Shown here piece by piece: positions 26,208 to 34,780 of a DNA stretch of 44,974 bases. Position 1 is the first letter of the stretch; each line of letters opens with the position of its first letter. The stretch comes from a virus: the IMG/VR virus record IMGVR_UViG_3300004771_000003, positions 1 to 44,974 of that record. The stretch is one strand, 5' to 3'. The position numbers and the translations under genes are program-made. Under the pieces are notes generated by a model that was not told where the DNA came from, did not search any database, and saw only the letters and a list, made by a program, of their open reading frames with translations.

Positions 26208-26500
26208 GCGAAAGCCGATTGAACGCCCGCCAGCCCATTGACCCCGAAACTCTCGCAGATACGACCCGCCTGTTTATCGAACATGCGCATGGCATCATCG
26301 CTCACATGGCTGGCGCGAGCGGCGACGTGGTGGTCAACGCACTCCTGAGCGCCGCTGTGAACATCGCCATCAGTTCCGGCGGAACTACCCCCCATATCCA
26401 GTCGTCGTTTAGGAAGGTTGCCGAGGGCGTCCCTGCCATGGTCAAGGCGTATGCCAAGATGGTGGCCGAATTCGAAGACGCGGGTGGGGAAGATCAATGA
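26204..26500 (+). CDS. helical hypothetical protein
   Basis: A 98-residue protein overlapping both neighbours. TTRLFIEHAHGIIAHMAGAS and a Ser/Ala-rich middle suggest a helical bundle. It directly precedes the Ntn hydrolase gene and is translationally coupled to it. Function unknown. Confidence 0.55.
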   Translation: MSESRLNARQPIDPETLADTTRLFIEHAHGIIAHMAGASGDVVVNALLSAAVNIAISSGGTTPHIQSSFRKVAEGVPAMVKAYAKMVAEFEDAGGEDQ

Positions 26501-27024
26501 CCATCATATGCGCCATGAAGACGGATGACGGGGTGTGGATCGGGTCTGACTCCAGGCTGTCCTGTGGGCCATTTAAGTGCCCGTCTCCGCAGCAGAAATG
26601 GTTCAAGACCGATGCGGGGATTTGGTGGGGGTATAACGGTCACTCCCGTATCGTCGAAATCGCCAAGATGTCCGTCGCCATTAACGCTGCGGAAAATGCC
26701 AGCGATCTGTGCGAGGCATTTCGCAGCGAGGTAAAGGATGATGCGTGGTGCACAGATGGTCAAGACCCAGGCGACCCGACGAATTACGGGTTCAATGCCA
26801 TCATCGTGGACCACGGAAATGTCTACCTCATGCACGGGTCGGGTAGCCTGACGAATTTCGGGGATGAATTCGTGGCGGATGGTGGGGGCCGTGAGTATGC
26901 CTATGGCGCCGCGTATGCTCTCCACGGCATGGACCCCGAGACGATCATGCGTGTAGCCATCGAGGCTGCTTGCCGATACGACGCATCGTGCGGCGGAAAC
27001 ATCTTCGTGAGGAAACTGCCATGA
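26497..27024 (+). CDS. proteasome/HslV-like Ntn hydrolase
   Basis: A 175-residue protein opening MTIICAMKTDDGVWIGSDSR. After Met removal the numbering puts Thr1, Asp17 and Lys33 exactly where the proteasome beta/HslV catalytic residues lie. The C-terminal part GGREYAYGAAYALHGMDPET then AIEAACRYDASCGG matches the family core. This is a T1-type peptidase fold. No AAA unfoldase is adjacent, so the partner may be a host ATPase or none. It overlaps the radical SAM gene by four bases. A role in virion maturation or modification is inferred. Confidence 0.7.
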   Translation: MTIICAMKTDDGVWIGSDSRLSCGPFKCPSPQQKWFKTDAGIWWGYNGHSRIVEIAKMSVAINAAENASDLCEAFRSEVKDDAWCTDGQDPGDPTNYGFNAIIVDHGNVYLMHGSGSLTNFGDEFVADGGGREYAYGAAYALHGMDPETIMRVAIEAACRYDASCGGNIFVRKLP

Positions 27025-32895: not shown

Positions 32896-34145
32896 TGGCA
32901 AACCCGAAAAAAGGCCGTTGGGCGCTCATCAGCGACGGCAACCCGGATACGTTGGCACGGTTCTTCCGAGGGTGCCGGGAGCAGGGCATCGAGACGCAGG
33001 GGGTTGTCGTCAACTGCCCCAACGGGGACTTCGATTGGCCGAAGAATTGGGGGCAGCATAGCGGCGGCCCTATCGCCAAGACCGGGGATGAATGGTTTGG
33101 GCTGCTGTGGTCGGACCAGTGCCCTCAATCTCCGAAATGGGATATCACTCTCATTGACGCCGTTCGCCCGTGGAATGTCGTGACCAGCATGGACGCCAGC
33201 CAAGGAGATTGGCGGCGAGGCGCGGTGGTATGGGGCACCGAATGCATGAAGACTGGCGGCGGTCTGGATATTACTGGACTGGATCACGAGCTTTCTGCGT
33301 GGTCCGTGATCGCCCGGAGCGCCAAGTGCTGGCATGTGACGGATGTTCTTCTCCCTCGTCAGACTGGCCCGTCAATCCCCGCGATGCTACATGCGGCATC
33401 CGGCGGCGATAAGCCGCTGCGTGAGTGCATGACCCGTCACGGCGTCCGTGTCTGCGAGCCGGACTATACCGGGGTGTCTCTGCTGATCAGCACGCCCAGC
33501 ATATCGAAGCCGGCGGTGGAATACACCATTTCCCTGATGCGGACCCAGCAGGAACTTTCCGGCATGTGTGTCCCGACCGAATGGACACTGGAGCGGTGGA
33601 ACGCGGATATCTGCATGGCTCGGTCCCATATCGTGGCCGAGTTCCTGCGGACCAAGCATACCCATCTCCTGATGATCGATGACGACATGAGTTGGGAGCC
33701 TGGGGCCGTCCACCGCCTTTTCTGGTCTGGCAAGGACGTGGTGGCCGTGGCGGGTCCGAAGAAGTCCTATCCGCTGCGGTTCGCCGCGTCCAAGGTGGAT
33801 GGCAATGGCCGTCCGGTCCCCATCGAGACGGACCCAGAAACCGGAGTGTCCGAGGTGGACAGCGTCGGATGCGCCTTCATGCTGGTGAGCCGGTCGGCGA
33901 TTGAACGGATGATCGATGCATACCCGGAACTGGCATACACCGGGAGCGACGGCAAGACCGCTCACGCTCTGTTCCTCCAGCAAATTGTGAACGACCGGTA
34001 TCTTCCCGAGGACTTCTCATTTTGCCAACGATGGCGCAATATCGGCGGCAAGGTCCACATTGCTACCGACGTTCCGTTGGGCCATATCGGGCAGCACGAG
34101 TTCAAAGGCAGCCTGTTGGAAAGCTGCATGAAGGGCGGGGCGTGA
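32895..34145 (+). CDS. two-part glycosyltransferase-like protein
   Basis: A 416-residue protein. The C-terminal half has LLMIDDDMSWEPGAVHRLF (the metal-binding DxD of GT-A transferases), preceded by MARSHIVAEFLRTKHTH. It is followed by DVVAVAGPKKSYPLRF and the later VDSVGCAFMLVSR, the usual downstream strand. The N-terminal half is a separate fold without a motif I recognise. It transfers a sugar, with donor and acceptor unknown. It overlaps the FkbM methylase. The two GT domains of this phage are not the same type. Confidence 0.75.
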   Translation: MANPKKGRWALISDGNPDTLARFFRGCREQGIETQGVVVNCPNGDFDWPKNWGQHSGGPIAKTGDEWFGLLWSDQCPQSPKWDITLIDAVRPWNVVTSMDASQGDWRRGAVVWGTECMKTGGGLDITGLDHELSAWSVIARSAKCWHVTDVLLPRQTGPSIPAMLHAASGGDKPLRECMTRHGVRVCEPDYTGVSLLISTPSISKPAVEYTISLMRTQQELSGMCVPTEWTLERWNADICMARSHIVAEFLRTKHTHLLMIDDDMSWEPGAVHRLFWSGKDVVAVAGPKKSYPLRFAASKVDGNGRPVPIETDPETGVSEVDSVGCAFMLVSRSAIERMIDAYPELAYTGSDGKTAHALFLQQIVNDRYLPEDFSFCQRWRNIGGKVHIATDVPLGHIGQHEFKGSLLESCMKGGA

Positions 34146-34780
34146 TGTACCATTCGGAAAGCGGGCAGGATCAGTGGCTGGAAGAAAACGTCTTCCGTGG
34201 GCTCCGTGGCGGCGTGTTCTTCGAAGCCGGGGCGCTTGACGGGGTTCTTCATTCCAACTCCCTGTTCTTCGAACGAGAACGCGGATGGTCTGGTGTTTTG
34301 GTCGAGGCAAACCCCTCCATGACGCCGCTCATCGCGGCCAATCGGCCAGATGCGACGGCGTTCAGTTGCGCCCTCGGCCCATATTGCGATGGGGATGTGA
34401 CGTTCAAGGCCGTGTCGGGACCGCTGTTCGGGTGGTCTGGGGTGGTGGACGCCATGGATCATAGACACGTCCAGGCCATTGAAGATCACATACCTCCGGA
34501 ATGGCAGCGTGTGGTCAAAGTTCCCTGCCGCAGGCTGGAATCCATTCTGGACGAGACCGGCATTACCCATGTGGACTATATGAGCCTTGACCTTGAAGGC
34601 GCCGAACTGGATGTTCTTTCCGTGTTCCCGTTCGAGCGGTTCCACATCGACGTTCTGGCCGTCGAGGACAACTACGGATGCCCAGAACTGGCGGAACTTC
34701 TGACCAAGAACAACTACCATCACCTTGCCAGGGTTGGGGTTGACGAAATCTGGCGCTTCGCCGGTATTCAGGGGGAATAA
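34145..34780 (+). CDS. FkbM-family methyltransferase
   Basis: A 211-residue protein from ATG 34145 (TGATG overlap). YHSESGQDQWLEENVF opens it, then GGVFFEAGALDGVLHSNSLF and GVLVEANPSM form the AdoMet site. MSLDLEGAELDVL completes the FkbM pattern. These enzymes methylate hydroxyls of sugars or small molecules. Directly after a glycosyltransferase it probably methylates the sugar added. The portal gene follows. Confidence 0.8.
   Translation: MYHSESGQDQWLEENVFRGLRGGVFFEAGALDGVLHSNSLFFERERGWSGVLVEANPSMTPLIAANRPDATAFSCALGPYCDGDVTFKAVSGPLFGWSGVVDAMDHRHVQAIEDHIPPEWQRVVKVPCRRLESILDETGITHVDYMSLDLEGAELDVLSVFPFERFHIDVLAVEDNYGCPELAELLTKNNYHHLARVGVDEIWRFAGIQGE

Follow-up and report, generated by a model that had tools for sequence, protein, structure and literature searches.

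A putative virion-decorating module of radical SAM, tandem GT-A and FkbM enzymes among the late genes of unrelated phages

Results and Discussion

A radical SAM enzyme, a tandem GT-A glycosyltransferase and an FkbM-family methyltransferase were found encoded among the packaging genes of a 44,974-bp viral stretch from IMG/VR (the window), where the radical SAM enzyme is fused to a GT2 domain. On balance, we favor the interpretation that these enzymes make up a transferable module of late genes acting on a virion protein, its putative substrate, and that the phages carrying it probably add an unusual methylated sugar to their own particles. The preliminary description of this sequence had proposed one shared pathway for four genes, the fourth being an Ntn hydrolase. 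That proposal survives for the other three, which recur together by capsid or tail genes in a sister phage (L319) and in HK97-type siphophages, but not for the hydrolase.

Gene layout of the window

Gene identities were assigned by Pfam, PHROGs and NCBIfam searches, and the Pfam and PHROG matches confirmed that all four genes lie on the plus strand where they had been described. The first is an HslV-like Ntn hydrolase (26497-27024; Pfam Proteasome, 4.5e-05; phrog_1040, "peptidase HslV family", 2.3e-14), followed by the 643-aa radical SAM-GT2 fusion (27021-28952; Pfam Radical_SAM, 1.8e-16; Glycos_transf_2, 1.8e-26) and by the large terminase gene, terL, with its LAGLIDADG intein (28945-31995; phrog_2, LAGLIDADG_3 and intein_Cterm). 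A small gene and a Zn-ribbon-like gene (g32215, ORF 32215-32895) separate terL from the 416-aa tandem GT-A glycosyltransferase (32895-34145; phrog_1574, 7.9e-21, in the C-terminal half), next to which lies the gene for the 211-aa FkbM-family methyltransferase (34145-34780; Pfam Methyltransf_21, 1.1e-16, above the cut-off). The portal gene (34785-36593) and, farther along, the major capsid protein (MCP) gene (38579-39640) are also on the plus strand. TerL and the portal flank the module and are not counted as members of it. The portal shares 25% identity, across 93-95% of its length, with two annotated portals; its relatives begin with MRIP, and its own start is probably the GTG at 34785.

The gene overlaps reported earlier were present, with ATGA (4 bp) joining the Ntn hydrolase to the fusion and TGATG (1 bp) joining the GT-A gene to FkbM. 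The fusion also overlaps terL by 8 bp and g32215 overlaps the GT-A gene by 1 bp (TAATG), while FkbM and the portal are 4 bp apart, given the GTG start. The radical SAM and GT-A genes of the window are 4.7 kb apart, with terL in between. As separate observations, the terL of L319 (7930-12252) harbors two inteins at sites other than that of the single window intein, and the window phage encodes a beta-clamp-like processivity factor and a primase/helicase (13822-14928 and 18515-20383, respectively).

The radical SAM-GT2 fusion

The fusion comprises a radical SAM domain (approximately residues 1-390; Pfam match at residues 23-169) and a GT2 domain (approximately residues 400-640; match at 403-555). 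Membership of the radical SAM superfamily was indicated by 61.2 bits against a cut-off of 29.5 and by a CX3CX2C motif (CPSACQHC, residue 24), and that of GT2 by 93.5 bits against a cut-off of 23.3 and an acidic LDPDD motif. The three CX3CX2C cysteines are invariant in the radical SAM family alignment (A8) and are also kept in L319. Later cysteines, at residues 245, 325, 328 and 334 in window numbering, are likewise invariant across the family, a pattern suggestive of an auxiliary cluster.

Single-sequence scans with the fusion yielded no relative and those with the portal nothing useful, which alone would have suggested an orphan, a picture that profile scans reversed. L319 encodes a 672-aa homolog with 52% identity and identical architecture, and the fusion is therefore not an assembly artefact, though the fusion itself is known from only these two phages. 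The AlphaFold model of the whole fusion was good only at approximately residues 56-250, and was left out of the fold search because of its mean pLDDT of 55. For the radical SAM proteins of the HK97-type phages, no relative was found among 50,697 phage records, and only distant relatives were found on plasmids.

Among solved structures, the radical SAM family best matches the cytosylglucuronate decarboxylase BlsE (4.7e-10), followed by PqqE and MoaA. The alignment to BlsE covers only the core, positions 43-185, and BlsE differs in having another gene context and no glycosyltransferase fusion. These matches bear on what the radical SAM enzyme acts upon. Radical SAM maturases are known to act on peptide side chains of ribosomal peptides, and the same module, with the same virion target, might work by radical modification of a side chain in a structural protein, with the glycosyltransferases and FkbM then decorating that residue. 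The weak matches of the domain to the peptide maturases HxsC4 and PqqE, and the later invariant cysteines if they belong to a SPASM/twitch-like auxiliary cluster, are consistent with this alternative. We nonetheless judge it unlikely, given that the best solved match acts on a sugar and that an HMM search for an acceptor common to both lineages, including a small precursor-like protein, found none.

The tandem GT-A enzyme and the FkbM methyltransferase

The gene at 32895, previously described as a second GT-A transferase, does encode a GT-A enzyme, but one built of two GT-A domains (approximately residues 1-190 and 190-410) rather than one. The tandem arrangement was seen in a confident structure model (pLDDT 90.2). 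A DXD-type motif (IDDD) is present in the C-terminal domain, and in the N-terminal domain the window has SDQ at the position where homologs show DD. The N-terminal half of the homolog in L320, an HK97-type locus, corresponds to the glycosyltransferase phrog_14945.

A sequence search of the GT-A protein against the PDB gave no meaningful match. The top Foldseek matches of the model in the PDB were LH3, mimivirus R699, ColGalT1 and bacterial bifunctional polymerases, with E-values down to 1.7e-10, and a PBCV-1 capsid glycosyltransferase appeared lower in the list. The collagen glycosyltransferases LH3 and ColGalT1, and R699, resemble the window enzyme in having two GT-A domains in a single chain; they share approximately 10% identity with it and differ in domain arrangement (TM approximately 0.3), so that the match speaks to the fold and not to the substrate. 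A 788-aa viral model named FkbM methyltransferase also matches part of the GT-A model, which hints that a GT-FkbM fusion may exist elsewhere.

FkbM scored 61.8 bits with Pfam Methyltransf_21, against a cut-off of 22.7, and 32.4 bits with the NCBI subfamily model TIGR01444, below its cut-off of 37.7; judged by sequence, it is a member of the wider FkbM family only. Its homologs adjoin radical SAM and GT-A genes in L319, L217, L218, L320 and L329.

Near relatives and the terL-portal slot

Portal and MCP profiles retrieved 160 loci. Of 49 near-group records, two had radical SAM genes, four had phrog_1574 glycosyltransferases, and none had FkbM or above-cut-off GT2 genes. In a more distant group (41 records), radical SAM and FkbM were each found once, adjoining in the same record. 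The cassette is therefore not a core trait of this phage group.

In the relatives, the terL-portal interval is a hypervariable cargo slot rich in sugar genes. In two near relatives, L175 (6798-13989) and L176 (8627-15689), the Zn-ribbon gene and an inverted portal enclose a seven-gene cassette that encodes a B12-binding radical SAM protein, a glycosyltransferase-like protein, two transketolase/E1-like halves, a DegT aminotransferase, a GDP-mannose 4,6-dehydratase and a small protein. The dehydratase of L175 (11465-13567) contains an intein. In L038 and L276-L284, which are distant relatives, the slot holds a SPASM-type radical SAM gene, joined by genes for transketolase-like halves and a GT9-like protein where the contig extends far enough, and by FkbM in L038. 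LR756501, an uncultured 735-kb phage, encodes a radical SAM protein of the L038 kind, transketolase halves and FkbM within approximately 7 kb; no homology was detectable between its GT9-like gene and that of L038. In other relatives, the genes next to terL encode GT2, TPR-GT9, epimerase, Methyltransf_11 or DUF5672 proteins.

Further observations were made on these loci. Transketolase-like halves flank a SPASM-type radical SAM gene in several large phages (L193, i.e., LR756501 308000-334000; L283, L285 and L287-L289), often with FkbM or GT9-like genes nearby, as a second recurrent sugar module. Of 83 near-group contigs, 70 (e.g., L102:5841-7604) have the portal on the strand opposite the MCP and 13 have both on one strand, as do the window and all 44 distant relatives. 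One or two neighboring genes are inverted together with the portal in a few loci, and a search of three loci for flanking inverted repeats revealed no clear ones.

The same data could be explained by chance, with the enzymes of the window being independent morons that arrived in a cargo hotspot and share no pathway. The slot does take unrelated cargo in relatives, namely an IS605 OrfB and a C5 DNA methylase, and the parts are rare in the 49 near records. The same combination, however, recurs at another site in unrelated phages, and its members diverge in step; the chance reading is thus strongly disfavored, and we regard it as extremely improbable. The IS605 OrfB/TnpB-like gene itself is located at 1530-3392 in L012.

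Recurrence in L319 and in unrelated phages

IMG/VR was searched with GT-A, FkbM and radical SAM family profiles, and only 14 loci carried a radical SAM gene of the window type. The records are fragmentary and several loci are close kin; distinct phages were counted by inspection. L319 has all four originally noted genes in the order of the window: Ntn hydrolase, B12 radical SAM, radical SAM-GT2 fusion, terL, exostosin-like glycosyltransferase, Zn-ribbon, GT-A, FkbM and portal. Eleven loci belong to HK97-type siphophages (about eight distinct phages; L217, L218 and L329 are nearly identical) and show the order MCP, small protein, radical SAM and GT-A, with FkbM between the latter two in L217, L218, L320 and L329. 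Another phage, L327, has radical SAM and GT-A genes after a tail-tube gene. The absence of FkbM from most HK97-type loci marks it as accessory to the module.

GT-A was linked to radical SAM in all 12 testable loci, representing about nine distinct phages from three unrelated lineages; L326, cut at a contig end, was outside this count. The two genes lie within approximately 30 bp of each other in most HK97-type loci, at no more than 1.4 kb in others and 7.2 kb apart in L319. The HK97-type MCP profile does not detect the window MCP, nor do the MCPs of the two lineages detect each other; the pair is thus present in at least three unrelated structural backgrounds. Radical SAM and GT-A distances were correlated (r 0.83, ten loci, permutation p 0.0002); the correlations of radical SAM with MCP distances (r 0.32) and of GT-A with MCP distances (r 0.60) came from seven loci, and comparison of the three is only indicative because the locus sets differ. 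At the fourteenth locus, L330, the radical SAM protein is divergent (29% identity). A further phage, L300, has a glycosyltransferase, FkbM, a divergent radical SAM gene and two further ORFs before terL. Against the module reading, GT-A homologs are also found where the radical SAM enzyme is absent.

The preliminary description had held that the idea of a shared pathway would fail if its genes were rarely found together in relatives. They are indeed rarely together in the near group, but three of them recur as a contiguous or almost contiguous set in L319 and the HK97-type phages. The Ntn hydrolase was rejected as a fourth module member, as it occurs upstream of terL without the cassette in two relatives, G005 and G006 (L331 and L332), and none was found in the HK97-type module records searched.

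Proposed function

No membrane segment was found in any module protein, the maximum 19-residue hydropathy being at most 1.17 in the window and at most 1.54 in the homologs. Because unrelated phages encode these soluble enzymes alongside their genes for the head, the tail or packaging, decoration of a virion protein is the simplest reading. It is from gene location, solubility and fold that we infer a sugar on such a protein, and we likewise infer a substrate, an order of reactions and a chemistry for the module. In this scheme, one GT-A domain would put the first sugar on a capsid, portal-region or tail protein, and the second GT-A domain, together with the GT2 domain, would lengthen the glycan. 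The radical SAM enzyme may then rearrange, oxidize or decarboxylate the sugar or its acceptor residue, and FkbM would cap the product by O-methylation.

A more specific version of this proposal, to which we give slightly less than even credence, is that the radical SAM proteins constitute a previously undescribed family, nearly always found with the tandem GT-A enzyme, that subjects a virion-bound sugar or its acceptor residue to radical chemistry and has spread as a module between unrelated phages. We know of no such radical chemistry on a virus particle.

The lack of membrane segments also bears on whether the enzymes alter a host surface glycan, as in serotype conversion or superinfection blocking. 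The GT2 domain has weak matches to GtrB-like families of O-antigen conversion, and transketolase-like genes of cyanophages are located within clusters of sugar genes. Unlike GtrA/GtrB, however, the module proteins are without membrane segments, the module lies in the structural operon of unrelated phages, and the GtrA/GtrB-type combination of a membrane-anchored bactoprenol glycosyltransferase with a flippase was not found, no flippase-like gene having been noticed. A host-surface role therefore appears distinctly improbable.

Glycosyltransferases of phages are also reported to act on DNA, according to a statement in PMC12619734 that cites Pyle 2024, and the module might accordingly add a methylated sugar to phage DNA as a hypermodification. 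In the L320 homolog, the N-terminal GT-A domain has a weak match (3e-08) to a PHROG labeled DNA methyltransferase, and the window contains an N6/N4 DNA methylase, though far off at 16319. Against this, the module sits among head genes and not among replication genes, and a C5 DNA methylase was found in none of the 20 module-bearing or slot-cassette records, some perhaps fragments, with a positive control. A TET/JBP dioxygenase was matched in none of 30 window-group records, a result to be read with the fact that the control genomes likewise gave no match. Altogether, we consider DNA hypermodification very unlikely, and virion decoration remains the reading that we prefer.

Comparison with known systems

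In Corndog (mycobacteriophage cluster O), an O-methyltransferase and three glycosyltransferases (gp35-gp38) are encoded between the portal and the protease and were proposed by the authors to modify the capsid (PMC4351075). Glycosyltransferase and methyltransferase genes lie inside the head/packaging cluster in the same manner in the window, in L319 and in the HK97-type loci, so the general kind of system is not new. Corndog is set apart by its description, in which no radical SAM, radical SAM-GT2 fusion or tandem GT-A is reported. Glycans on the capsid and tail tube of mycobacteriophages are also reported, by Freeman 2023 as cited in PMC12619734.

Podovirus ctQWt234 (MW202801), a third kind of phage, resembles the module phages in encoding a radical SAM protein, two glycosyltransferases and a methyltransferase straight after the major capsid gene, in the order MCP, radical SAM, glycosyltransferase, PhyH, methyltransferase, NodB-like and glycosyltransferase. 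Its radical SAM protein belongs to another family (24% identity to that of L038), it has the additional PhyH and NodB-like genes, and no FkbM is annotated. The L038/LR756501 type of module shares the proximity of FkbM to radical SAM, and in L038 the same terL-portal slot, but has another radical SAM family, transketolase-like halves and no tandem GT-A; most phages of the L038 type (L276-L284) are also without FkbM.

The preliminary description had stated that no system with this set of genes was known. This holds for the radical SAM partner, of which we found no description, and does not hold for the combination of glycosyltransferases and methyltransferase, already present in Corndog (PMC4351075). 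In the literature searched, no single paper combined radical SAM with FkbM, phage and glycosyltransferase. What appears to be new is the radical SAM core, its fusion to GT2 and the tie to a tandem glycosyltransferase.

Implications

To our knowledge, few systems of virion glycosylation have been described in phages, and they employ ordinary glycosyltransferases. The link between a radical SAM enzyme and a tandem GT-A in capsid operons of unrelated phages suggests that the particle surface is chemically richer, with relevance for the stability of the particle, immune recognition and adsorption. Strong diversifying selection on particle decoration is suggested by the hypervariable terL-portal slot and the whole nucleotide-sugar cassettes that it holds in relatives, and the module provides a defined set of enzymes for direct tests of new sugar or protein chemistry.
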